64,000 nucleotides of DNA from Thioclava sp. GXIMD2076 (GTDB lineage Bacteria > Pseudomonadota > Alphaproteobacteria > Rhodobacterales > Rhodobacteraceae). Shown piece after piece: positions 9,361 to 28,553 of this stretch. The notes under the pieces are model-generated. The model was not told the DNA's origin and searched no databases. It saw nothing but the letters and a program-made list of their open reading frames with translations. Location of the stretch: positions 372,001 to 436,000 of the forward strand of contig NZ_CP149933.1 in NCBI RefSeq assembly GCF_037949795.1, in the 5' to 3' direction. Each line of letters begins with the position of its first letter. The first letter of the stretch is position 1. Position numbers and translations under genes: made by a program.

Positions 9361-10246
9361 ACGGCTTGCGGGCCACGGTCTGGGCGAGGGTCACGAAATT
9401 ATGGGCATGCACGCCCTGTTCATCGATGCGGAAATTCACCGAGAGCGCGGTCTGCCGCATGGGTTCGGCGATCTTCATATAGCGCACCCCCTGACGCGGC
9501 GCCGTCGCCACCGAACCGGGCACGATACAGATCCCCTCGCCAATCGCCACAAGGCTTAACGCCGTCTGCAGGTCCATGGTGAAGCTGCGCCGCGAGGTGT
9601 CAATCTTCAACTCCGCCAACCCGTCGAGCACGAAATCGGCATAGGATGGGCGCGGAAATTCGGGATACAGAAGGAAGGTCGGGCGCTCCAGCGCGGCCAG
9701 AGACAGCGAAGGCCCCACTCCCGTATCCCAAGTATCGGGGATCGCGGCGATCAGCGGCTCGTCCATCAGTTTGCGGGTGATCAGCTCGGCATCTTTCAGC
9801 GCGGGCCGCGCAAAACCCACATCGATCTCGCGCCCGATCAACGCGCGATAGAGGCGGGCATTGTTCATCGGCAGCAGCGAGAGCGCCACATCGGGATAGG
9901 CCGCGCGGAAGCTCTTGATGATATTGGGCAATATCGAATAGGTCGCAGACCCCACGAACCCGATCCGGAGCCGCCCCTCGGCCCCCTGCCCGATCCGGCG
10001 GATCTCGAGGCACATATCGTCGAACTCGCCGAGCAGATGCCGCCCGCGATCGCGCAGCCGCACCCCCGCCTGCGTCAGCGACACCGCGTTGCGACCACGG
10101 TTGAAAAGGATCGCGCCCAGATCCTCCTCGATCTGCTTGATCTGGCGCGAGAGCGGGGGCTGCGCGAGCCCGAGCCGCTCGGCCGCACGACCGAAATGCA
10201 GTTCCTCGGCCACCGCCATGAAGTAGCGCAACTGTTTGAGATTCAT
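9344..10246 (-). CDS. LysR-family regulator, probably of aromatic ring cleavage
   Basis: 300 residues from the ATG at 10246 (MNLKQLRYFMAVAEELHFGRAAERLG). This N-terminus is typical of the CatR/BenM/ClcR branch of LysR regulators (LAQPPLSRQIKQIEEDLG recognition region), and a C-terminal effector domain follows. It lies directly downstream of the ring-cleavage dioxygenase on the same strand, separated by a terminator-like hairpin. In relatives such regulators respond to muconates and control catechol 1,2-dioxygenase genes. The target assignment is inferred from proximity. Confidence 0.83.
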   Translation of the reverse strand: MNLKQLRYFMAVAEELHFGRAAERLGLAQPPLSRQIKQIEEDLGAILFNRGRNAVSLTQAGVRLRDRGRHLLGEFDDMCLEIRRIGQGAEGRLRIGFVGSATYSILPNIIKSFRAAYPDVALSLLPMNNARLYRALIGREIDVGFARPALKDAELITRKLMDEPLIAAIPDTWDTGVGPSLSLAALERPTFLLYPEFPRPSYADFVLDGLAELKIDTSRRSFTMDLQTALSLVAIGEGICIVPGSVATAPRQGVRYMKIAEPMRQTALSVNFRIDEQGVHAHNFVTLAQTVARKPFKASA

Positions 10247-17060: not shown

Positions 17061-18017
17061 ATGACCTATAACCAACCCTTGGGCGGCAATAGTATGCCGC
17101 GTTTCGGCGGCCCTGCCACGATGATGCGCCTGCCTGCTCAGGAAAACGCGCAGGGGCTCGATGCCTGTTTCGTGGGGATCCCGATGGATATCGGCGCCTC
17201 CAACCGCGCAGGCACGCGGCTCGGCCCCCGCCAGATCCGCGACGAGAGCCGGATGATCCGGCCCTATAACATGGCCACCCGTGCTGCCCCCTTCGAGGCG
17301 ATGCAGGTCGCCGATATCGGGGATGTGCCTATCAACACATTCGATCTGAAGAAATCGGTGCAGATCATCGAGGACTACTATCACGCGCTGCTGAGCCATG
17401 ACGCGATCCCGCTGACCTTGGGCGGGGATCACACGCTGACTTGGCCGATCCTGAAGGCGCTGGCCAAGAAGCACGGGCCGGTCGCGCTGATCCATGTGGA
17501 TGCGCATTCCGACACCAACGAGGCGATGTTTGGCGAGACCATAGCCCATGGCTGCCCCTTCCGCCGCGCGTGGGAGGATGGTTGCCTGATCAATGACCGC
17601 GTCACCCAGATCGGGTTGCGCGCCACGGGCTATGCGGCGGATGATTTCGACTGGGGGCGGGCGCAGGGCTGGCGCGTGGTGCAGGCCGAGGAATGCTGGT
17701 ACCAGTCGATGAAGCCCCTGATGGAGGAGGTGCGTGCCCGTGTGGGCGATGCGCCGGTCTATCTGTCTTTCGATATCGACAGCCTCGATCCGGCTTTCGC
17801 ACCCGGCACCGGTACGGTGGAACCGGGCGGGCTGAGCACATGGCAGGCCTACGAGATCGTGCGCGGCTGTGCCGGTCTCAATCTGGTGGGCTGCGATCTG
17901 GTGGAGGTCTCACCGCCCTATGACCCTTCGGGCAATACGGCGGTGATTGCGGCGAACCTGCTTTACGAGATGCTCTGCGTCTTGCCGAAATCGGAGGCGC
18001 ATCGGCTGGCCCGTTAG
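17061..18017 (+). CDS. Ureohydrolase: agmatinase / guanidinobutyrase family
   Basis: 318 residues; GAGGAG precedes the ATG. The binuclear Mn site ligands are all present: His124 (GGDHT), Asp147/His149/Asp151 (HVDAHSD), Asp238/Asp240 (SFDIDSLDPAFAPGTG). It splits a guanidino compound into urea and an amine. The family cannot be resolved further by eye: agmatinase, 4-guanidinobutyrase and 3-guanidinopropionase share these motifs. It lies between an OruR-like regulator and the guanidine locus, overlapping gdx tail to tail by 4 bp. A guanidino substrate other than arginine is plausible. Nickel-dependent guanidine hydrolases also belong to this superfamily, but nothing here singles that activity out. 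Confidence 0.88.
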   Translation: MTYNQPLGGNSMPRFGGPATMMRLPAQENAQGLDACFVGIPMDIGASNRAGTRLGPRQIRDESRMIRPYNMATRAAPFEAMQVADIGDVPINTFDLKKSVQIIEDYYHALLSHDAIPLTLGGDHTLTWPILKALAKKHGPVALIHVDAHSDTNEAMFGETIAHGCPFRRAWEDGCLINDRVTQIGLRATGYAADDFDWGRAQGWRVVQAEECWYQSMKPLMEEVRARVGDAPVYLSFDIDSLDPAFAPGTGTVEPGGLSTWQAYEIVRGCAGLNLVGCDLVEVSPPYDPSGNTAVIAANLLYEMLCVLPKSEAHRLAR

Positions 18018-18331
18018 GGCGTGGTGAGTTTCATCAGCACGATGCCTGCGATGATCAGCCCTGCGGCCAACAGCCGGAGCGGGCTGATCTCCTCGCCTAG
18101 AAAGGTAACGCCAAGGATGAAGGTGCCCACCACCCCGATGCCGGACCAGACCCCATAGGCCGTGCTGAGCGGCAGCGACCGCATCGCCAGTGCCAGCATG
18201 GCGAAACTGGCCAGCACCGAGACCAGCATCACCACACTCGGCACCAATATCGTGAACCCGTGCGATTTCTTCATCGCGACCGCCCAGATGATTTCGAGAA
18301 GCCCCGCAAGCGCGAGCTGTATCCATGCCAT
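18014..18331 (-). CDS. gdx: SMR-family guanidinium exporter Gdx (SugE)
   Basis: 105 residues and four membrane helices. The conserved membrane Glu is in GLLEIIWAVAMKKSHG (about residue 13). The WAVAMKKS and AYGVWSGIGVVGTFILG motifs distinguish SugE/Gdx from EmrE. Gdx works as an antiparallel dual-topology dimer exporting guanidinium in exchange for protons. It is the last gene of the guanidine operon, 81 bp after allophanate hydrolase. That gap holds a two-hairpin guanidine-II riboswitch (18352-18399) directly upstream of the CAGGAG ribosome site at 18340-18345. Confidence 0.93.
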   Translation of the reverse strand: MAWIQLALAGLLEIIWAVAMKKSHGFTILVPSVVMLVSVLASFAMLALAMRSLPLSTAYGVWSGIGVVGTFILGVTFLGEEISPLRLLAAGLIIAGIVLMKLTTP

Positions 18332-18351
18332 ATGACTGGCTCCTGTCAGAT

Positions 18352-18399
18352 CGGGCCGTCCCGGGTGGAAAACGGCCGGAGAGGTCGTCCCCTCCGGCC
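18352..18399 (-). ncRNA. Guanidine-II (mini-ykkC) riboswitch upstream of gdx
   Basis: On the minus strand two hairpins follow each other. P1 (18399-18374) has an 11-bp stem beginning GGCCGGAG and an ACGA tetraloop. P2 (18363-18352) has CGGG, loop ACGG, CCCG. The linker is 10 bases (GTTTTCCACC), and CAGGAG follows 6 bases after P2. Two stems with ACGR loops just ahead of a Shine-Dalgarno is the defining pattern of guanidine-II riboswitches, which typically sit before SugE/Gdx genes. Guanidine-driven loop-loop contact is thought to free the ribosome site. The GTTTT after P1 could also let P1 act as a weak terminator. Confidence 0.88.
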
Positions 18400-18412
18400 T
18401 GCGCCTTTTACC

Positions 18413-20197
18413 TTATCCCTGCGTAGCGCGCCATGCCCGCCAGCCGCCGAAGGCGGTAATATCCTCGGCGCCCTCGGTGGCATGGGCCTCGCAGAGGAAA
18501 CAGGTCACCGCGCGGCCATCGGCCAGCGTCACCTTCCCCACCCCCAAGGGCGCGGGAATTGCCGCCACAAAGGCGCCGAAAGCTGCGGGCGGGAGTGCCC
18601 AGAGTTCCAGTTCGATCCCATCGCCCGTGGCGTTCGGCACACGGACCAGACCCGGCTTGGCCGGCACCGTGCCCGTGAGGCTATAAAGGCGGTAGTCGCC
18701 CGCGGTGCGGGTCGTCTCCAGCAATATCCCGCCCGGCCCTGTCAGCTCGTGGTTCAGGGGCATCCCTGACAGATGTGCGCCCACGGCGGCAATGGTCAGC
18801 CAGCCTTCGGGCACCTGAGGCGCCGCCTCGGGCAGCACTGCGGAACGCTCGATCCCCATGCCGGAGGCAGCCGCTTTCTGCATGGCGGTGGCAAAGGGCA
18901 CGAGCGCCTGATCACTGAAGGGCGGCGCCACGAATTGCACGCCCGTGGGCAGACCCGACGCACCAAAACCTCCGGGCACCGCAATCGCCGCATAGCCAAG
19001 GAGATTGGCGAAATTGGTATAAAGTCCGAACTCGCTGTTGCGCTTGACCGGCTCGGCCAACATATCCGCCACCGTGCAGCGCGTGGGCGAGGTCGGCAGC
19101 ATCAGCATATCGACCGCCTCCCAGACAGGCTTTACCTTCTGACGCAGCGCATTCAGCCGGTAAAGCCCGTTGAACACATCGACCGCGCTATATTTACGCG
19201 CGCCCTCGATAATGCCGCGCACGGTCGGGTCGAAGCTGTCGGCATGATCGTTGAGGAAAGGCTCGACGGCGGCCAGACGCTCGGCCACCCATGGGCCGTC
19301 ATAAAGGAGTGCTGCCGCCTCGCGGAAGGGTGCATAGTCAAAGGGCACCAGCTCGGCCCCCAAATCCTCCGCGCGTTTGCAGGCAGCGTCATAGGCAGCC
19401 TCGACCTCCGCATTGCCATAGAAATTCCTCTCGGCCCCCGCCAGCACGCCAATCCGCAGACGCGCGGGCAGAGCGTGGGGCGTGGCCACGCGCGAGAAGG
19501 GATCGGCCGCATCATAGCCCTCCATCACCGCGCGCACCTCGGCCGCCTCTGGCACCGATCCGGCAAACACCGTGATCACATCGACCGAGGCACAGGCCGG
19601 CACAAGGCCGGTATTGGGCACGAGGCCCGGCGAGGGTTTGAGCCCCACGAGATTGTTGAACATCGCAGGCACCCGCCCCGAGCCCGCCGTATCGGTGCCG
19701 AGCGAGAAGGCGCAAAGCCCCGATGCCACGGCCACAGCCGAGCCCGAGGAGGACCCGCCCGAGACATAATCGGCAGCGAACACACAGCGCGGGATACCAT
19801 AGGGCGAACGCGAGCCGTTGAGCCCCGTGGCGAACTGGTCGAGATTGGTCTTGCCGATCAGGATCGCGCCCGCCGCCTTCAGCCGCGCAATCACCGTGGC
19901 ATCCGCCGCAGGATCATAGGCAAAATCAGGGCAGGCCGCCGTGGTGGGCAGGCCGATCGCGTCGATATTATCCTTGGCGGCAAAGGGGATGCCGTAAAGG
20001 GGCAGCCCTTCGGGGCCACGCGCGACAAGCGCCTTGGCCTGCGCGCGCAGATCCTCGGCCTTGGCCCGCGTGATGAAGATCGCGGGGTCTTTGGACGCAT
20101 CGCAACGGCGGATGACCTCCTCGATCAGATCAAGGGGGGTCATACCGCTGGCATAGGCTTTGCGGATTGCGGTGATGGACAGAAATTCGGGCAGCAT
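18413..20197 (-). CDS. atzF: Allophanate hydrolase
   Basis: 594 residues. The N-terminal amidase-signature domain has the triad Lys75 (FAAKDNID), Ser149 (SGGSSSGS) and nucleophile Ser173 (TDTAGSGRVPA). A separate C-terminal allophanate_hydrolase_C domain (from about 470) includes VPNATGDGIELELWALP. It cleaves allophanate to ammonium and CO2, the last step of both urea and guanidine assimilation by the carboxylase route. Its start shares one base with the carboxylase stop (TGATG), so the two are translationally coupled. Confidence 0.93.
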   Translation of the reverse strand: MLPEFLSITAIRKAYASGMTPLDLIEEVIRRCDASKDPAIFITRAKAEDLRAQAKALVARGPEGLPLYGIPFAAKDNIDAIGLPTTAACPDFAYDPAADATVIARLKAAGAILIGKTNLDQFATGLNGSRSPYGIPRCVFAADYVSGGSSSGSAVAVASGLCAFSLGTDTAGSGRVPAMFNNLVGLKPSPGLVPNTGLVPACASVDVITVFAGSVPEAAEVRAVMEGYDAADPFSRVATPHALPARLRIGVLAGAERNFYGNAEVEAAYDAACKRAEDLGAELVPFDYAPFREAAALLYDGPWVAERLAAVEPFLNDHADSFDPTVRGIIEGARKYSAVDVFNGLYRLNALRQKVKPVWEAVDMLMLPTSPTRCTVADMLAEPVKRNSEFGLYTNFANLLGYAAIAVPGGFGASGLPTGVQFVAPPFSDQALVPFATAMQKAAASGMGIERSAVLPEAAPQVPEGWLTIAAVGAHLSGMPLNHELTGPGGILLETTRTAGDYRLYSLTGTVPAKPGLVRVPNATGDGIELELWALPPAAFGAFVAAIPAPLGVGKVTLADGRAVTCFLCEAHATEGAEDITAFGGWRAWRATQG

Positions 20198-23100
20198 CAG
20201 AGGGCCTCCACAATGGCAAGCAGATCGCCTGCATGAACGGTACGGCCGGGGGCCGTGCGGGTTTCGGTCAGACGGCCCGCGCTGGGGCTGGTCACGGGGA
20301 TCTCCATTTTCATCGATTCAACGATGGCAATGGGCTGGCCTGCGGCAACAGGCTCTCCGGGGGCCACGAGGAATTTCCACAGGCTCCCGGGCACGGGGCT
20401 TTCGACACCGGTGCACCCCTCGGGCACCTCGCCCGCATCGGCACCAAAGACCTCATCGACCGAGAAATGATCCAAGCCCTCGTCGATCCAGCGCTGGCGC
20501 TCGGTCTCAAAGGCCGCCTGCTGGCGCGCCTTGAAGGTCCGAGCCGCCCCTTGGTCGATCCGCGCCTTCTCAGAGGCCCAATCGAAAGTGCCCTCCTCGA
20601 TGCGCACATCATAGCGCCCATGCGGGAAGGCCTCGCGGGCTTCCGTCAATTCGTCATGATCCACCTCGAAGAAGCGGATCTGGTCGAAATGATCCAAGAG
20701 CCACGGGCGGTCGCCAAAGGCTTTGGTGCGCCGCCATGTGTTCCACATCTGGATCGTACGTCCAAAGAGCTGATAGCCCCCCGGCCCCTCCATCCCGTAG
20801 ACGCACATATAGGCGCCGCCGATGCCCACGGCATTTTCCGGCGTCCAAGTGCGGGCGGGATTATATTTGGTGGTCACGAGCCGATGCGCAGGGTCCACGG
20901 GCGTGGCCACCGGCGCGCCAAGATAGACATCGCCCAGACCCATCACCAGATAGCGGGCATCAAAAATGGTGCGCTTGACGGCAGCCTCATCCTCCAGCCC
21001 GTTGATCCGGCGGATGAACTCGATGTTATCGGGGCACCAGGGCGCATTGGGGCGCACCAGCTCCTGATATTTGCGCATCGCCAGTTCCGCCTGCGGATCC
21101 TTCCACGACAGCGGCAGCCAGACGGTGCGGGTGGGCACCTTCATCTGATGGGCGGGCGGCAGGCTGGCCTCGATCCTCTGCAGCTCGCGCAGCAGGTCGG
21201 GTCGGGAAATCCGCGCCGGATCATAGTGGATCTGCAGGGACCGGATGCCCGGCGTCAGGTCGCGCAGCGGCAGACCTGCGGCCACCACCGCCTGCATCAG
21301 CGCCTGCACGCGCAGCCGCAGCTCGATATCGAGCGCCATCGGGCCATATTCGACAAGCAGGTTCGCATCGCCCTGACGACGATAGACCACAGGCACATCC
21401 CCTGCCCCCTCGCCCAAAATGGGCGAACCGAGTTTTTGCAGGCTGGGCGTGGCAAGCCGCGGGCCTGCCACCGGATCCTCGGGGCGATGGGCCGCAGAGA
21501 AGCGGATCCTGTCGCCCGGACGGAGCTGCCCCAGCTTCCACTGGTCCTCCTCGGCGACCACCGCAGGGCAGACAAAACCGCCAAGGCTCGGGCCGTCCGG
21601 CCCCAGCAAAATGGGCATATCACCGGTGAAATCGATCGCGCCGATCGCATAGGCATTGTCGTGGATATTCGACGGATGCAGCCCCGCCTCGCCGCCATCT
21701 GGGCGCGCCCAGTCGGGGGCGGGGCCAATCAGCCGCACGCCGGTACGGGCCGAGTTGAAATGCACCTCATAGGCGGTGGAAAATAGCGTCTCGATATCGC
21801 TCTCGCGGAAGAAATCCGGCGCACCATGCGGGCCGAAGACCACCGACAGCTCCCACTCATGGGTCAGGTCGGCGGGCTCCAGTGCCTCGGGCTCGCCCCG
21901 GGCCGCGCCGATATGGAGCGTATCGCCGGTTTTCAGAACCCCCGTCGCATGGCCGCCGAATTTACCCAAGGCAAAGGTCGCGCGCGAGCCCAGCACCTCG
22001 GGCGCGGCAAACCCGCCCTCAACCGCTAGATAGGCGCGCTGGCCAGCGCCGCTAATCGTGCCAATCGCCAGTGTCGCACCCGCGGAAATATCGACCACCG
22101 GCCCCTCGACAGGCGCACCGTCGAGCACCATCGCCATCTTTGCCCCTGCCAGAGCCACGCGGGTCTCGGTCAGAAAGCGCAGGGTCGGACCGTTGACGGT
22201 CAGCTCCAGCGTGGTGGTATCGGGCGGGTTGCCCAGCAGACGGTTGGCATTGCGATGGCTGCGGGCATCCATCGGCCCCGAAGGCGGCACGCCCACGCCC
22301 CACATCCCCACGCGTCCGGGCAGTTCCTGAATGGACGACTGCGCACCGGGTGCCAGAACCTCGATCACCGCGGGGGTAAACCCGAACGTATCCAGCGCAC
22401 GGGTCTCGACCTTCCCCGAGCCCAACAGGTCGGAGGCGGCAATGGCGCGCAGATAATGGAGGTTGGTCTCGATTCCTGCAACGCGCGTTTCGGCCAGCGC
22501 GTCCTGCAGCTTGGCCAGCGCCTCGGCGCGGTTGGCACCATGCACGATCACCTTGGCCAGCATCGGATCATAGAAGGGCGTGACCTCGGTGCCGGTGGCA
22601 ATCCAGCCATCATTGCGGGCCTTTTCGGAAAAGCTGACTTCGGTCAGTAATCCCGCCGAGGGGCGGAAACCGGCATGCGGCATCTCGGCATAGAGCCGCG
22701 CCTCGAAAGCGGCGCCTTGGGAGACGGGCAGCTGCGCGGGGATCGGGTCCTCGCCCGCCGCCTGACGCACCATCCATTCGACCAGATCAATGCCGAGCAC
22801 GGCCTCTGTCACAGGGTGCTCGACCTGAAGACGGGTGTTGACTTCGAGGAAGTAGAACTCTTCGCGGGCAGGGTCATAGATAAATTCGACCGTCCCCGCC
22901 GAAGCATAATCCACCGAGGCACAGAGATCGCGGGCAGCCTGTAGCAGCCGCGCGCGGACCTCGTCGCGCAGATGCGGCGCGGGGGTCTCCTCGATGACCT
23001 TCTGGTTGCGGCGCTGGAGCGAGCAGTCGCGCTCGCCCAAAGCCACCACACGGCCCTGACCATTGCCGAAGATCTGCACCTCGACATGGCGGGCATGCCC

Positions 23101-23706
23101 CACGAAACGTTCCAGATAAAGACGCGCATCGCCAAAGCTCGCCCCTGCCATCCGCTCGACCGACGCATAGGCCGCGCTCAGCGCCGCCTCATCGGCGCAA
23201 AGCTGCATGCCGATGCCGCCGCCGCCAGCCGTCGATTTCAGCATCACCGGATAGCCCACGCAGGAAGCCTCGGTGAGCGCCTCATCAGGCCCCGACAGAA
23301 GGCCCGATCCGGGCAAAAGCGGCACACCCGCCGCCCTAGCCAGATCGCGGGCGGTATGTTTGAGCCCGAAAGCCTCCACATGTTCGGGACGCGGGCCAAT
23401 CAGGCGGATGCCGTGATCCGCCAGCTTGCGCGAGAACTCGAGGTTCTCGCTCAGGAACCCGTAGCCCGGATGGACGGCCTGCGCGCCCGTGGCAAGGCAG
23501 GCCTCGATCACGGTATCGATCTGCAGATAGCTTTCCGAGGCCGCAGGCGGCCCCAGACGGACCGCCTCATCGGCGGCAGACACATGGGGCGCGAAACGGT
23601 CGGCATCGGAATAGACGGCGACAGAGGCCACCCCCATCTTGCGCAACGTCTTGATAATCCGCAGCGCGATCTCGCCACGGTTGGCAACTAGCACCTTGTC
23701 GAACAT
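20197..23706 (-). CDS. Guanidine (urea-type) carboxylase, biotin-dependent
   Basis: 1169 residues, close to the usual ~1200 for single-chain urea/guanidine carboxylase. In order: biotin carboxylase (about 1-450, with the ATP-grasp loop STAGGGGIGM); KipA/PxpC-like AHS2 (about 470-770, GRVGMWGVGVPPSGPMD); KipI/PxpB-like AHS1 (about 790-1000); a linker; and a C-terminal biotinyl domain with Lys1133 in ESMKMEI. It carboxylates guanidine to carboxyguanidine using ATP and bicarbonate; family members annotated as urea carboxylase do this when encoded with carboxyguanidine deiminase. I prefer guanidine because the deiminase genes, importer, two guanidine riboswitches and Gdx surround it. Urea remains a possible side substrate. 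Confidence 0.9.
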   Translation of the reverse strand: MFDKVLVANRGEIALRIIKTLRKMGVASVAVYSDADRFAPHVSAADEAVRLGPPAASESYLQIDTVIEACLATGAQAVHPGYGFLSENLEFSRKLADHGIRLIGPRPEHVEAFGLKHTARDLARAAGVPLLPGSGLLSGPDEALTEASCVGYPVMLKSTAGGGGIGMQLCADEAALSAAYASVERMAGASFGDARLYLERFVGHARHVEVQIFGNGQGRVVALGERDCSLQRRNQKVIEETPAPHLRDEVRARLLQAARDLCASVDYASAGTVEFIYDPAREEFYFLEVNTRLQVEHPVTEAVLGIDLVEWMVRQAAGEDPIPAQLPVSQGAAFEARLYAEMPHAGFRPSAGLLTEVSFSEKARNDGWIATGTEVTPFYDPMLAKVIVHGANRAEALAKLQDALAETRVAGIETNLHYLRAIAASDLLGSGKVETRALDTFGFTPAVIEVLAPGAQSSIQELPGRVGMWGVGVPPSGPMDARSHRNANRLLGNPPDTTTLELTVNGPTLRFLTETRVALAGAKMAMVLDGAPVEGPVVDISAGATLAIGTISGAGQRAYLAVEGGFAAPEVLGSRATFALGKFGGHATGVLKTGDTLHIGAARGEPEALEPADLTHEWELSVVFGPHGAPDFFRESDIETLFSTAYEVHFNSARTGVRLIGPAPDWARPDGGEAGLHPSNIHDNAYAIGAIDFTGDMPILLGPDGPSLGGFVCPAVVAEEDQWKLGQLRPGDRIRFSAAHRPEDPVAGPRLATPSLQKLGSPILGEGAGDVPVVYRRQGDANLLVEYGPMALDIELRLRVQALMQAVVAAGLPLRDLTPGIRSLQIHYDPARISRPDLLRELQRIEASLPPAHQMKVPTRTVWLPLSWKDPQAELAMRKYQELVRPNAPWCPDNIEFIRRINGLEDEAAVKRTIFDARYLVMGLGDVYLGAPVATPVDPAHRLVTTKYNPARTWTPENAVGIGGAYMCVYGMEGPGGYQLFGRTIQMWNTWRRTKAFGDRPWLLDHFDQIRFFEVDHDELTEAREAFPHGRYDVRIEEGTFDWASEKARIDQGAARTFKARQQAAFETERQRWIDEGLDHFSVDEVFGADAGEVPEGCTGVESPVPGSLWKFLVAPGEPVAAGQPIAIVESMKMEIPVTSPSAGRLTETRTAPGRTVHAGDLLAIVEAL

Positions 23707-23711
23707 GGCCC

Positions 23712-24317
23712 TTACTCCCCGATCACTACGCGGATCGGCGTCGGATCGAAGCCGTTGCAGGGATTGTTGATCTGCGGGCAGTTCGAGATGACGCAGAGCA
23801 CATCCATCTCGGCCTTCATCTCGACGTAATCGCCAGGGCTCGAGATGCCGTCATCGATGGTCATCGACCCGTTCTGCGAGATCGGCACATTCATGAAGAA
23901 ATTGAGGTTCGGCACGATGTCGCGCTTGTCCATGCCGTATTTCGACAGTTCCAGAATGAAATTCTCGCGGCAGGCATGCTGATAGGATGTCTCGTGGCCG
24001 AAACGCACGGTATTGCTCTCGCGCGAGCAGCAGCCCGCATTCGTGTCATGGCGCCCCGAGGTATCATCGACCACGGTCAGCATAACGCGCCCCTCCGACG
24101 AGATCAGCTTGGTGCCACGGGTGATATAGGCGCCATTCTGCTCGCGCATGGTGTCTTGCGAGGAATAACGCTCGGAATGGTCACCCGCTGCATAGAAGAT
24201 CGTGTCGATGGCCTGCTGGCCATAGCTGTCGATGATGCGGATCGTCTGGCCCTTTTTAACCAGACCGGACCACGGGCGGTTTGCGGGGATATCATGGATC
24301 TGTTGTTCGTTTTGCAT
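23712..24317 (-). CDS. Carboxyguanidine deiminase subunit (urea-amidolyase-associated protein 2, DUF1989)
   Basis: 201 residues from the ATG at 24317; another in-frame start 13 codons upstream would overlap the previous gene. It has the DUF1989/UAAP2 pattern: GQQAIDTIFYA, a Cys/His-rich stretch GRHDTNAGCCSRESNTVRFG, YQHACRENF, and ISNCPQINNPCNG. The conserved Cys and His residues are likely metal ligands. With its partner (24328-25128) it removes the imino group from carboxyguanidine to give allophanate. It lies 5 bp before the carboxylase. Which of the two proteins corresponds to CgdA or CgdB I cannot settle. Confidence 0.87.
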   Translation of the reverse strand: MQNEQQIHDIPANRPWSGLVKKGQTIRIIDSYGQQAIDTIFYAAGDHSERYSSQDTMREQNGAYITRGTKLISSEGRVMLTVVDDTSGRHDTNAGCCSRESNTVRFGHETSYQHACRENFILELSKYGMDKRDIVPNLNFFMNVPISQNGSMTIDDGISSPGDYVEMKAEMDVLCVISNCPQINNPCNGFDPTPIRVVIGE

Positions 24318-24327
24318 CGGGAAGACC

Positions 24328-25128
24328 TCAGGCGCGAGCGTTGTTTTCAAAGCCACGGATGGCTTCGGCGGTGGCGTTGCGGCACAGGTCGTCCTGTTGG
24401 ACAGCGCGCGCGGTCATGCGCGTCACCGTCAATGCGGGAACATCCGGACCCGTCGTCGGGTCCAGCGGATGGCGGGTATTGGAGAGCGCATAGATCATGT
24501 CTTCCTCGGCGCGCAGCTCGACCCAGTCCTGCCCCGAAAGCAGGCTTTCGTTCCAGAAGAACTGCCCCTTGTCATCCACACGCACCGGCGCGAAGAAGGT
24601 CAGAAGCGCAGGAAGGTCGCGCTTGCCCAGACCCAGCTTGGCCAGCGCGAGGATCATATTCTCGCGGGTCGAGCGGAAGGCCGGCGTAAACGGCGAGCGG
24701 GCGGGCATGCCACCTGACAGCGCATCATTGGCGCCCGCGCTGTCTTCGATGATCGAATAGAGCACGCGGCCCATATCGGAAAACACCACGCGGCCCTTTT
24801 TCAGATCCGTCGTCCATTGCAGCTTGCAGGTATCGGGCAGGTTCTGGCGCTCAGTCACATCGCCTTCGCGCCATGCCGCAAAAGAGGCCGAAGCCCCGAA
24901 CCCGTTGGCCTGAAGGCGCAGGATCTCGCCCTTTTGCAGACGGGCGGTGTAATACCAGCCCCCCGGCACGGTCTCGTCCCAGATCACCCCTTCGGGCGCG
25001 GGTGCGGGCAGCGGGCTCGGCTGCGGCATGGCAGAGGGCGCGGCCTCCAGCCCGCGGCGTTGATGGTCTTCATAGCGGGCGCGATCGGCAGCGATAGTCT
25101 CGGGCTTACGCGGAGTGTGTTGCAGCAT
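24328..25128 (-). CDS. Carboxyguanidine deiminase subunit (urea-amidolyase-associated protein 1, DUF1989)
   Basis: 266 residues, a longer paralogue of the downstream protein. A variable Pro-rich segment (about 30-46) precedes the DUF1989 core. GGWYYTARLQKGEILRLQ, LYSIIEDSAGANDALSG and SNTRHPLDP correspond to the partner's motifs but lack its Cys-rich segment. The two probably form a heteromeric enzyme in which only one chain keeps the full metal site. It overlaps the end of the ABC ATPase gene by 23 bp, showing tight packing of the operon. Confidence 0.85.
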   Translation of the reverse strand: MLQHTPRKPETIAADRARYEDHQRRGLEAAPSAMPQPSPLPAPAPEGVIWDETVPGGWYYTARLQKGEILRLQANGFGASASFAAWREGDVTERQNLPDTCKLQWTTDLKKGRVVFSDMGRVLYSIIEDSAGANDALSGGMPARSPFTPAFRSTRENMILALAKLGLGKRDLPALLTFFAPVRVDDKGQFFWNESLLSGQDWVELRAEEDMIYALSNTRHPLDPTTGPDVPALTVTRMTARAVQQDDLCRNATAEAIRGFENNARA

Positions 25129-25957
25129 GCGAGAGTTCCTTTGCCCAGGTCGTCCCGGTCAGTGGCCCCTGTTCTGTCGGGTCGTCCCGACGGGGATAAA
25201 TATCGGCATCATAGATCGAAGTGGCCCCTGCCACGCGGGGCGGCCAGATCGCGATGTCCTTGGTGATGGTCGCGCCGTAGCGTAGCCGTTCTTCGGGCAG
25301 GTTGCGGGTGCGCTCGAAGGCGATGATGCGGGTCGATAGGGTGAAGGCCTCACGGATGTCATGGGTGACCATCACCACGCTCATCGGCACCTCGTTCCAG
25401 AGCCGTTTCATCAGCTTGTGGATGTCGGTGCGGATGCCCGGATCAAGCGCGCCAAAAGGCTCGTCCAGCAAAAGCACCTTGGGTTTCATCATCAGCGCCT
25501 GCGCGAGCGCCAGACGTTGTTGCATTCCGCCCGAAAGCTGGGCGGGATATTTATCCTCGGCCCCCGCAAGCCCGACCTCGGCCAGCATCGCGCGGGCCTC
25601 ATCGGCAATGCGCTTGCGGGTGGCACCAAAGGTCCGACCCAAAAGGCGCGCGGCTTTCATCTCGGGGCCTGCCATCACATTGGCCAGCACCGTCATATGC
25701 GGGAAGACCGAATAGCGCTGGAAGACCACGCCCCGATCGGGCCCCGGCTCGGGTGGCAGGGCCTCGCCATCAATGGTGATCGCCCCTCGCGTCAGACCCT
25801 CTTGGCCCAGTAGCATCCGCAGGAAGGTGGTCTTGCCACAGCCCGACGGACCCACAAGCGCGATAAACGAGCGCGGCGCGATCTCGAGATCGATGTTCTG
25901 CAACACGACCTGCTCGCCATATTCCTTCCAGAGGTTTTTCACGGAAATCTGCGTCAT
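25106..25957 (-). CDS. ABC transporter ATPase, guanidine importer
   Basis: 283 residues from the ATG at 25957, which overlaps the permease stop by ATGA; the longer frame is a shadow of the permease gene. Walker A is GPSGCGKTT, the signature is LSGGMQQRLALAQAL, Walker B is VLLLDEPFGALD, with the THD switch His. It is of the SsuB/TauB/NrtD nitrate-sulfonate class and powers the importer with the genes at 25954 and 26779. An unusual ~60-residue C-terminal extension (YGATITKDIAIWPPRVAG onward) is of unknown role. Confidence 0.9.
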   Translation of the reverse strand: MTQISVKNLWKEYGEQVVLQNIDLEIAPRSFIALVGPSGCGKTTFLRMLLGQEGLTRGAITIDGEALPPEPGPDRGVVFQRYSVFPHMTVLANVMAGPEMKAARLLGRTFGATRKRIADEARAMLAEVGLAGAEDKYPAQLSGGMQQRLALAQALMMKPKVLLLDEPFGALDPGIRTDIHKLMKRLWNEVPMSVVMVTHDIREAFTLSTRIIAFERTRNLPEERLRYGATITKDIAIWPPRVAGATSIYDADIYPRRDDPTEQGPLTGTTWAKELSHAATHSA

Positions 25958-26766
25958 TGGCGGATCTCCGTCCAAGGGAAGGCGCGCCGCCGTAGCTGGC
26001 TGAGAGCCACATCCATCACCACCGCCAGAAGTGTGATCCATGCCACATAGGGAAAGATCACATCCATCGACATATAGCGCCGCACGAGAAAGATCCGGTA
26101 ACCCAGACCCGCATCCGCCGAGATGGCCTCGGCCGCGATGAGGAACAGAAAGGCCGGACCAAGTTGCAAACGCAGGCTGTCGATCAGCCGTGGCAGCACC
26201 TGCGGCAGCACGACCCGCAGGGTGATCAGCCAGCTTGAGGCCGAAAGGGTCTCGGCCTTGATGATCTGCTCGCGCGGCAATGCCCCCGCCTGAAGCGCCA
26301 GATCGCGGATCAGGATGGGGGTCACGCCGATGACGATGAGCGCGATCTTGGCGGTCTCGCCCAGACCCAGCGCGATAAACAGCACCGGCAGAAGCGCCAG
26401 AGGTGGCACCATCGAGATAAAGCCTACGAGCGGCGCAAGGGCGGCCCGCGCCAGTGGCAGCACGCCCTGCGCCACGCCCACAACGAGCGCGATGGCCGTG
26501 GCGATCCCCAGCCCCGAAACAAGGCGGGTCAGGCTGGCGCGGGTATCGGCCCATAGGAGATAGTCGCCGGTGCGCCGGTCTTGGGTAAAGGCATAGGTAT
26601 TGACCGCATCGGCGATCGTCTGGAATCCGGGCAAGAGCTTGTCGGCGGGGTTGGCCTCGAGCCGCACCGCCGAACCGATCGCATAGGCGACAAGCAGGGC
26701 GATGAACGGCAGGCAGGCAAGAAACAACCCCGTCCGACGCGAGGGTCTGACGTTGATGAGACGCAT
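25954..26766 (-). CDS. ABC transporter permease, guanidine importer
   Basis: 270 residues with about six membrane helices and the BPD_transp_1 coupling loop (EQIIKAETLSASSWLITLRVVLPQVLPRLID, containing the EAA-like motif). It belongs to the SsuC/TauC class. It overlaps the ATPase gene by 4 bp and starts 12 bp after the binding-protein gene. Homologues in this context are known as urea-carboxylase-associated ABC permeases; guanidine as cargo is inferred from the riboswitch and operon. Confidence 0.9.
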   Translation of the reverse strand: MRLINVRPSRRTGLFLACLPFIALLVAYAIGSAVRLEANPADKLLPGFQTIADAVNTYAFTQDRRTGDYLLWADTRASLTRLVSGLGIATAIALVVGVAQGVLPLARAALAPLVGFISMVPPLALLPVLFIALGLGETAKIALIVIGVTPILIRDLALQAGALPREQIIKAETLSASSWLITLRVVLPQVLPRLIDSLRLQLGPAFLFLIAAEAISADAGLGYRIFLVRRYMSMDVIFPYVAWITLLAVVMDVALSQLRRRAFPWTEIRQ

Positions 26767-26778
26767 GGGAGGCCCTGA

Positions 26779-27852
26779 TTACAGCGCGTTATCGGCGGCG
26801 GCCTGCATGAACTGCGTGTCGAAGCGCAGCTTCACATTGCTTTCGTCGCCCAGCACCGTGCCATCGGCGAGTTCGATCCCGATCACATCCACTGAGGGCG
26901 CGCCCGCACCCAGAAGGCCTTTGTCGAAGAGGAAGTTGCGCACATGGTCCATACCATCGGCCATCTCTTTCGACTGCGTGAAGCTCACCGCCTTGACCGG
27001 ATCGGCAAAGAAATGCGTTGCGGCCAATTGCTCCTCGAAACCCGCCTGATCGGTGCCGGAGGCCGCGCCCATCGCGGCACGCGCCCTGGCGCCCTCGGGC
27101 GTATCCGAGGTCATCAGCGCCACGGTTTCATACCAGATCCCCGCAAGCGCCTTGCCGAATTCGGGATGCGCTTTGAGCGTGTCGGTATTGGCCACCATCA
27201 GATCGAGGATCTCGCCCGGGATCTTCGAGCTGTCGAACACGATATGCGCGTCATCGAGCTTGGCGATCTCCGAGACCATCGGGTTCCATGTCACCATCGC
27301 CTGCACATCCGCCGTCTGGAAGGCACCGACCATATCGGGATCGGCAGTATTGACGATCTTCACATCGCGGCCCGTCAGACCCACGGTCTCCAGACCACGG
27401 TTCAGCAGGTATTCGGACACCGAGAACTCGACCAGATTGACGCTCTCGCCCTTGATATCCTCGAGCTTGTCCTTGCCCTTCAGGATCACGGCATCATTGC
27501 CATCGGAGAAATCGCCCACGATCACGGCGGTGGTATCCACGCCGCCTGCTGCCGGAATGGACAGCCCGTCCATATTGGTCAGCGTCACCGCATCATAGGC
27601 GCCTACAGTATATTGGTTCATCGATTCCACATAGTCGTTAAACTGGGTGACCTCGATCTCGATCCCGTATTTATCCGCCCATTTCTGGACGATTCCGCTA
27701 TCCTGCGCATAGCCCCACGGCATCCAGCCCGCATAGATCGACCAAGCGACCTTGAAGGAGGGTTTGGTCTGCGCCTGCAGAGGGGCGGTGGCCATCAGGG
27801 TGGCAATCAGGGTGGTGGCGGAAGACAGCATTAGTCCACGGCGAGTAATCAT
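26779..27852 (-). CDS. Periplasmic binding protein of guanidine importer (urea-carboxylase-associated)
   Basis: 357 residues from the ATG at 27852, chosen for AAAGGA seven bases upstream and the signal peptide beginning MITRRGLMLSSATTLIATL with likely cleavage after LQAQ. The mature protein resembles NMT1/SsuA-type binding proteins of the urea-carboxylase ABC subfamily (SIYAGWMPWGYAQDSGIV, QYTVGAYDAVTLTNMDG, VVGDFSDGNDAVI). It delivers the substrate to the membrane permease. It is the first gene of the operon, preceded by the guanidine-I riboswitch. Confidence 0.9.
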   Translation of the reverse strand: MITRRGLMLSSATTLIATLMATAPLQAQTKPSFKVAWSIYAGWMPWGYAQDSGIVQKWADKYGIEIEVTQFNDYVESMNQYTVGAYDAVTLTNMDGLSIPAAGGVDTTAVIVGDFSDGNDAVILKGKDKLEDIKGESVNLVEFSVSEYLLNRGLETVGLTGRDVKIVNTADPDMVGAFQTADVQAMVTWNPMVSEIAKLDDAHIVFDSSKIPGEILDLMVANTDTLKAHPEFGKALAGIWYETVALMTSDTPEGARARAAMGAASGTDQAGFEEQLAATHFFADPVKAVSFTQSKEMADGMDHVRNFLFDKGLLGAGAPSVDVIGIELADGTVLGDESNVKLRFDTQFMQAAADNAL

Positions 27853-27929
27853 GGCTCGTTCCTTTACATTCATCATGTTGCATAAGGGACGTACGAAACC
27901 ACGTTCCGCCAATCCCTTGGCTGGACGAG

Positions 27930-28028
27930 GTCTCCCGGGCTTTTATCCCGCCGTGTGCCGAACGGGATGTCTCCCCGCCGGTGGCTGCTCTCGGACCAGA
28001 CGCATCTCTGCCGGAACCCTAGCGGCCA
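27930..28028 (-). ncRNA. Guanidine-I (ykkC) riboswitch
   Basis: Read on the minus strand, the conserved ykkC blocks occur in order: GCTAGGGTTCCGG (28025-28013 region), CTGGTCCGAGAGC (about 27999-27987), ACACGGCGGGATAAAAGCC (27955-27937) and CGGGAGA (27936-27930). This is an almost perfect match to the class consensus, which binds free guanidinium and turns genes on. It lies 77 bp upstream of the binding-protein start and should control the whole ~9.9-kb operon down to gdx. I see no classical terminator with a T-run downstream of the aptamer. A weak AAGGGA/TCCCTT stem (27884-27918) follows, so the output mechanism is unresolved. Confidence 0.95.
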
Positions 28029-28553
28029 ACTCCTGTAGATTGCTAGCAGCAGGCATTTCTCCGCGTCAACGCCCGCAGGCCAGAGCCGCAAGATACCAAA
28101 GGATTGCACCGGAACGTCAGAAAATAAGAGCAAGAATGCAGCGACATGCCCAATATTTACCCAATCCGCGAAGAAAGCGACGGCGGGCCAATATGCGGGC
28201 CATACGTTCCGCCGCGTAGACCGGTCCGGCAGAACCGGAGAAACAATCTGCCATGCGCGAGGCGCAGCCGACGGGCGGCCCCTTTGGCAGGCATCGCACC
28301 CGCTCTCGCCAAACAGGCCCGAAGCCGCGCGGTTAAGTCAGCTTACATGATCTGAAATCAATATTCGCCCGTAAGTCGTCGCCTTTTTTTGTCAGGAATG
28401 CCCGGACAGGCTTGAGACCGCGTCATATTATCATTTGTTAAGTTGGACGATATCCAGACCGCCTGCCGTTTCCTGATCCCGTTTAGCGGGAACATTCCAA
28501 GCGTCTGGTTGGTTTTCGAGTAAGCTTATTCCTGATCGGGCGATGTGATCTAT
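28029..28553. other. Intergenic region between guanidine operon and crp-like gene
   Basis: About 525 bp without a supportable gene. It must hold the minus-strand promoter of the riboswitch-controlled operon and the plus-strand promoter of the Crp/Fnr gene. I do not see a convincing sigma-70 box pair. The DNA becomes AT-richer from about 28340 to 28450. Confidence 0.6.

Follow-up and report, generated by a model that had tools for sequence, protein, structure and literature searches.

How is guanidine sensed along a gene row that carries more than one guanidine riboswitch aptamer? An earlier inspection of the window (the whole stretch of 64,000 nucleotides analysed here), which we call the sequence-only reading, had placed a guanidine-II (Gd-II) riboswitch at 18352..18399, before a gdx exporter gene, and a guanidine-I (Gd-I) aptamer about 9.6 kb upstream, at the head of the same transcript. 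A scan of the whole window with Rfam models returns three matches above gathering score and no others, all on the minus strand and within one gene row. In order along that strand, the features are:

27930-28033, minus strand: Guanidine-I riboswitch aptamer, head of the gene row (RF00442, 79.3 bits; gathering score 63)
26779-27852, minus strand: importer substrate-binding protein (TIGR03427, 524 bits on the longer open reading frame 26779-27912)
25954-26766, minus strand: importer permease (NCBIfam TauC/SsuC-type permease matches, under their cut-offs)
25106-25957, minus strand: importer ATPase (from the sequence and the list of open reading frames; the frame crosses a Gd-II aptamer and ends 23 nt into cgdA)
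25145-25193, minus strand: Guanidine-II aptamer, wholly within the ATPase coding sequence and before cgdA (RF01068, 42.5 bits; gathering score 32)
24328-25128, minus strand: cgdA (UAAP1), carboxyguanidine deiminase subunit by family (TIGR03425, 210 bits; cut-off 206)
23712-24317, minus strand: cgdB (UAAP2; TIGR03424, 321 bits)
20197-23706, minus strand: gca, urea/guanidine carboxylase (TIGR02712, 1721 bits)
18413-20197, minus strand: atzF, allophanate hydrolase (TIGR02713, 758 bits)
18352-18396, minus strand: Guanidine-II aptamer between atzF and gdx (RF01068, 40.0 bits; gathering score 32)
18014-18331, minus strand: gdx-like SMR exporter (PF00893; nearest solved chain 6wk5)

Three guanidine riboswitch aptamers in one gene row

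Both segments singled out by the sequence-only reading are above the gathering scores of their Rfam covariance models, and the sequence agrees with its description of the gdx leader. The gap between atzF and gdx is 81 nt (18332-18412), the two hairpins carry ACGA and ACGG loops, the gdx ATG lies 20 nt downstream of the aptamer, and AGGAG ends 8 nt before the ATG. P1 can be extended to 11 pairs, and the 5' end of the RNA then agrees with 18399. The distance from the 3' end of the Gd-I aptamer to this element is about 9.5 kb. The Gd-II aptamer at 25145-25193, which scores above the copy in the gdx leader, had been overlooked. Both Gd-II copies consist of two hairpins with ACGR loops. The Gd-I aptamer reaches 87.0 bits with our own model R2, which has the same sequence among its seeds. 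All three aptamers are predicted to bind guanidine, as their classes do.

The start of the substrate-binding protein is uncertain; we used the ATG at 27852, and a related record (CP155823.1) annotates a later start. The gdx product is closer to 6wk5 of the SMR family (91.5 bits), which we take to be Gdx-Clo, than to the best EmrE chain (54.5 bits), and it scores 116 bits against the SugE model, under the NCBI cut-off of 126. Its sequence points to a Gdx-like rather than an EmrE-type SMR protein, with predicted guanidinium export. The row from the importer through cgdA, cgdB, gca and atzF to gdx is likely one operon with a single transcript. Convergent with gdx lies a ureohydrolase-family gene (17061-18017, plus strand), whose nearest solved chain is the guanidinobutyrase 3nio (480 bits); against 7esr, presumably a guanidine hydrolase, it scores only 139 bits.

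Our main reading, to which we give a probability of about 0.6, is that the three aptamers act in series along this likely operon and would gate import, breakdown and export separately.

The middle aptamer is nested in the importer ATPase gene

The ATPase frame of the window (25957-25106) has no internal stop and spans the entire middle aptamer. The aptamer lies within the last ATPase codons, and therefore ribosomes would have to cross the sensor. To place this arrangement among relatives, we studied the best 80 of 168 relatives from a genome scan with cgdA (L063-L142). By genome name, L063-L079 are Rhodobacterales, including one metagenome-assembled genome labelled Exiguobacterium, and L080-L142 are Hyphomicrobiales, except for one unplaced metagenome-assembled genome of Alphaproteobacteria. 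The R2 model finds Gd-I in 79 of the 80 loci, the exception (L111) being on a contig that is too short; with our own model R1, 76 have a Gd-II before cgdA (E ≤ 0.0018; L067, L109, L118 and L123 do not). Because R1 and R2 both have the window and one locus of the 80 (L064, identical to G046) among their seeds, Rfam's own models were also run on nine of the loci. The Rfam Gd-II model is above cut-off in eight of the nine (L109 among them, L079 not), and the Rfam Gd-I model in all eight that hold the leader. A second Gd-II at E ≤ 0.01 was found in none of the 80 loci.

Both hairpins are intact in 74 of the 80 loci (hairpin scan), and the ATPase frame stays open beyond P2 in 69 of these 74 (69 of 80 overall), in two orders. 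The exceptions are L076, with a stop before the aptamer, and L081, L101, L103 and L106, with a stop between the hairpins. With cgdA starts chosen by script, the 69 read-through loci divide into 51 whose ATPase stop overlaps the cgdA start, 10 whose ATPase stop precedes that start by 2-3 nt, and 8 in which the spacing is 5-16 nt. Nesting of a Gd-II aptamer in the upstream coding sequence is conserved across two orders of Alphaproteobacteria, and this middle element inside the importer ATPase gene is the new point of the operon.

Deposited annotations contain the same kind of overlap. In Rhizobium leguminosarum WSM2304, the ATPase overlaps UAAP1 by 4 nt; in the near-identical Thioclava plasmid CP155823.1, where all three aptamers are present, the annotated overlap is 20 nt, the start being one codon later than in the window. 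The nearest record found is plasmid p2 of Thioclava sp. 'Guangxiensis' (cgdA 98.5% identical, gdx region 99.8%). Within the genus, cgdA is found at E ≤ 1e-20 in one of 16 genomes, that of the window itself. An RDDP-like motif, encoded by the first hairpin, follows the WPPRxAG domain end in 92 of the 120 best ATPase homologues listed. In Agrobacterium tumefaciens CFBP5877, the ATPase stops soon after the WPPRxAG end, 98 nt before an aptamer that is still recognisable; therefore, the ATPase tail is dispensable.

Six loci have damaged hairpins and an ATPase frame that still reaches the cgdA start. In L123 (Rhizobium phaseoli JHI366, around 9935-9975), the hairpins are apparently fused into one through loss of a 33-nt repeat unit, as judged against L129; the frame remains open to the cgdA start, leaving a natural half-aptamer. 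In L067 (Tabrizicola sp.), both hairpins before cgdA are eroded by substitutions, and the ATPase stop is still at the cgdA start.

The position before cgdA was compared with that in other lineages by a phylum scan of 398 genomes, with loci taken for the best 30 UAAP1 matches. Outside the class, Gd-II is present at E < 0.01 in 21 of 26 loci among these matches and absent from five, and in all 20 with a resolved upstream gene (L152 excluded) it lies between cgdB and gca, 17-283 nt past the cgdB stop. Two phylum scans gave 12 loci within the class (L143-L150, L165, L175, L176 and L178, where L143 is the window and L144 is L064). Gd-II precedes cgdA in eight of them: six copies, that of the window included, are nested, and two are intergenic (L165, assigned by script, and L148, judged by eye). 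None was found before cgdA in L149, L175, L176 and L178. The middle Gd-II is not universal within the class. In the alphaproteobacterial L149, a Gd-I rather than a Gd-II aptamer lies about 90 nt before cgdA.

Selection on hairpins, linker and reading frame

In each of the two orders, changes on the cgdA tree show codon periodicity as far as P1 (permutation p ≤ 0.0002), a pattern that is gone inside the aptamer. Third-position changes amount to 0.86 and 1.43 in P1 and 0.40 and 0 in P2, whereas directly upstream they reach 4.57 and 7.21. All 75 of 75 sequences keep standard pairing at positions 1-5 of the P1 stem and 1-4 of the P2 stem; both partners have changed at the third and fifth pairs of P1 and at the third pair of P2. 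The linker has 4.0-5.6 changes at each codon position and no codon periodicity, indicating that the tail peptide is not selected. In addition, the frame in which the second hairpin is translated differs between the two orders (GTT-like or RDD-like), indicating conservation of the RNA rather than of the peptide. Stops are not avoided in the ATPase frame relative to the other two frames (a stop precedes the cgdA start in 18, 10 and 9 of 70 loci); therefore, its openness may be a neutral inheritance.

The loop-to-loop distance of read-through loci is 32 in 15 of 15 Rhodobacterales, window included, and 33 in 55 of 55 Hyphomicrobiales; five of 75 loci depart from the modal distance of their order, and they coincide with the loci that lack read-through. 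Elsewhere the distance is 28-37 in copies before gca and 28-34 in 27 non-nested copies of the family; among non-nested copies, it is 30 in A. tumefaciens CFBP5877 and 33 in L148. On the cgdA tree, no linker-length change occurs in 10.25 substitutions per site of read-through loci (59 plus 15 loci; 6.17 plus 4.08 substitutions per site), compared with nine in 5.94 for 20 intergenic loci (binomial p = 1.2e-4, a value that favours the read-through claim because the test is conditioned on read-through). When all 80 tree members with an aptamer before cgdA are taken (74 named loci, the window and five more), there are four changes in 10.86 and the contrast is weaker (p = 0.017). Since no 3-nt change is seen, conservation of the frame and of the exact linker length are inseparable.

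The gdx copy and its leader

The pairing of the two classes recurs in related genomes as far as Gd-I and the Gd-II before cgdA are concerned, but it does not extend to the exporter: gdx was found in none of the 68 related loci whose sequence extends 200 nt or more past the atzF end, and no match at E ≤ 1e-10 occurs anywhere in the 80 loci. We found this arrangement of gdx only in the window and the near-identical Thioclava plasmid.

Stand-alone Gd-II-gdx leaders occur in the family. In 20 of 26 of them (a count that leaves out family loci L022, L024 and L033), TTG is found 35-46 nt upstream of the first loop, compared with a background of 0.12 per 12-nt window. A predicted Gd-II of Magnetospirillum gryphiswaldense has a mapped transcription start 7 nt upstream (PMC9549626). 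The TTG box is absent from the gdx leader of the window and from the three nested leaders tested, a sigma-70 consensus scan of the gdx leader found no promoter, and a consensus scan found no terminator-like site between atzF and gdx. Lacking the promoter box of stand-alone leaders, the gdx copy looks promoterless and dependent on the operon; the missing box is no proof, because six of the 26 stand-alone leaders also lack it. An exporter leader without its promoter was likely joined to the 3' end of the operon, which would place export, like breakdown, behind a Gd-II gate.

The Gd-I leader of the importer

An intrinsic terminator, the usual but not obligatory expression platform of Gd-I (PMC12186494), was not found within 110 nt after Gd-I on the coding strand of the window and 24 related leaders. 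In 22 aligned leaders (the window and 21 related ones), Gd-I is followed by a nearly invariant CCTCGT-AGCCAAGGGATTGGC segment (27905-27930, minus strand, in the window), of which GGGA could pair with TCCC before the importer Shine-Dalgarno sequence. TCCC follows the segment in most aligned leaders and could face the purine-rich Shine-Dalgarno sequence. Given this TCCC and no intrinsic terminator found, Gd-I is likely translational and would open translation of the importer. This is only a suggestion, because the consensus fold downstream of Gd-I does not pair these elements with one another, and none of its 10 predicted pairs has a compensatory change.

Two related loci, L098 (13300-13412, plus strand) and L115 (5642-5748, minus strand), contain a second Gd-I aptamer within the same locus. 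A weak Gd-I-like match (35.7 bits, under the cut-off) lies at G000:C3:520952-521060 in L004, a locus without a match above any gathering score.

Predicted gating and its alternatives

Starting from what is directly observed, namely the three aptamers, their order, the ATPase frame open across the middle one and the conserved placement of the latter in two orders, the predicted gates would run from Gd-I on the importer through the middle Gd-II on cgdA and breakdown to the second Gd-II on gdx and export. The middle Gd-II is likely a translational ON switch for cgdA. Ribosomes completing the ATPase would unfold the middle aptamer and end near or just past the cgdA start; therefore, cgdA output would depend on both guanidine and importer translation. 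This may make the translated riboswitch a ribosome-coupled AND gate, in which ATPase ribosomes reset the aptamer and stop at the cgdA start, and cgdA needs guanidine to dock again. We regard the AND gate as doubtful and propose it tentatively. Folding with the hairpins forced does not release the Shine-Dalgarno sequence (mean unpaired 0.36 free and 0.34 forced, with a rise in only 6 of 75). The 3' arm of P2 pairs no better with its own Shine-Dalgarno region than with swapped partners (p = 0.11 overall; p = 0.55 and p = 0.53 for the single orders). Compared with shuffled Shine-Dalgarno regions, the pairing is better overall (p = 0.030) and for Hyphomicrobiales alone (p = 0.005); for Rhodobacterales alone it is not.

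Alternatively, the middle Gd-II regulates cgdA as a conventional translational switch and overlaps the upstream gene by chance; the early stop of the ATPase would have been lost by drift, and translation of the ATPase would be irrelevant to the switch. We rate this explanation a little short of even odds. Stops are not avoided and the linker has no codon periodicity, as drift would have it, and the aptamer remains recognisable where the ATPase ends before or inside it (5 of 74 loci) or well upstream, as in A. tumefaciens CFBP5877. However, read-through is kept in most loci of two orders, and in 61 of 69 the ATPase stop either overlaps the cgdA start or precedes it by 2-3 nt; the linker length is unchanged along read-through lineages, and the six loci with damaged hairpins are still open to the cgdA start.

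The remaining alternatives concern the exporter. In the sequence-only reading, Gd-I acted on import and catabolism and Gd-II on gdx only, which could give gdx a different threshold (here taken as a higher one), so that export opened only once catabolism was saturated. The affinities of the two classes can indeed differ, with KDs of 44 µM (Gd-I) and 93 µM (Gd-II) in Vreelandella boliviensis (PMC12508155), but the catabolic genes of the window stand behind their own Gd-II at 25145-25193. Since this second Gd-II precedes cgdA, breakdown and export are both behind Gd-II and the importer alone is behind Gd-I only, which does not support that division of labour and undercuts the idea of export upon saturation; we consider this explanation very improbable. 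The other alternative is transcription of gdx alone, from a promoter in the atzF end and outside the operon. The stand-alone leaders of the family, many with a promoter-like box and some without, make it conceivable, but the consensus scans show neither such a box nor a sigma-70 match before the gdx aptamer, nor a terminator-like site upstream, and we find an internal promoter unlikely. Three gates in series along one likely operon remains our preferred reading.

Relation to known systems

The pairing of Gd-I and Gd-II in one operon, of which the sequence-only reading knew no description, is not new, as it has been described in PMC12508155 and PMC12186494. What stands of that reading is the presence of both classes on one strand of one gene row; the novelty of the pairing, a role for Gd-II in export only and, by the consensus scans, an internal promoter are not supported. 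According to PMC12508155, the V. boliviensis operon has Gd-I at its head and Gd-II between cgdB and gca, and the Gd-II also binds methylguanidine. The Gd-I head, an internal Gd-II and the genes of the same pathway are common to that operon and the window. However, the intergenic cgdB-gca element is the sole internal Gd-II reported there (PMC12508155), whereas the window has one in the ATPase gene and another before gdx, and the Rfam and own-model scans found no aptamer between its cgdB and gca.

A similar arrangement of Gd-I and internal Gd-II is reported for three enterobacteria (PMC12186494), with importer and deiminase behind Gd-I and carboxylase and hydrolase behind Gd-II. The classes are paired likewise here, but the enterobacterial Gd-II begins at the carboxylase and that of the window before the deiminase, and the portion of that report at hand mentions no exporter with a third aptamer. 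A riboswitch that acts through termination-reinitiation at a stop/start overlap is likewise described for Mycobacterium tuberculosis ppe2, with a B12 riboswitch, an upstream open reading frame and an AUGA overlap (PMC11260477); that riboswitch governs an upstream open reading frame downstream of itself, whereas here the aptamer is within the upstream coding sequence. Our literature searches, mostly of abstracts, returned no riboswitch inside an upstream gene and no three in one operon, which does not establish their absence in print. As in the known tandem riboswitch, two classes for one ligand stand in series, but here they are kilobases apart and before different genes.

These results correct the operon model: the genes for breakdown and for export both lie behind a Gd-II, and those for import alone do not. 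Should the AND gate apply, import, breakdown and, in Thioclava, export would be metered successively along a single message. Most descriptions of riboswitches concern leader elements in RNA that is not translated. With a conserved aptamer doubling as the end of a gene, a sensor would be at work on a ribosome-swept message, and the nested aptamer would offer a natural test of the interplay between translation and ligand sensing.
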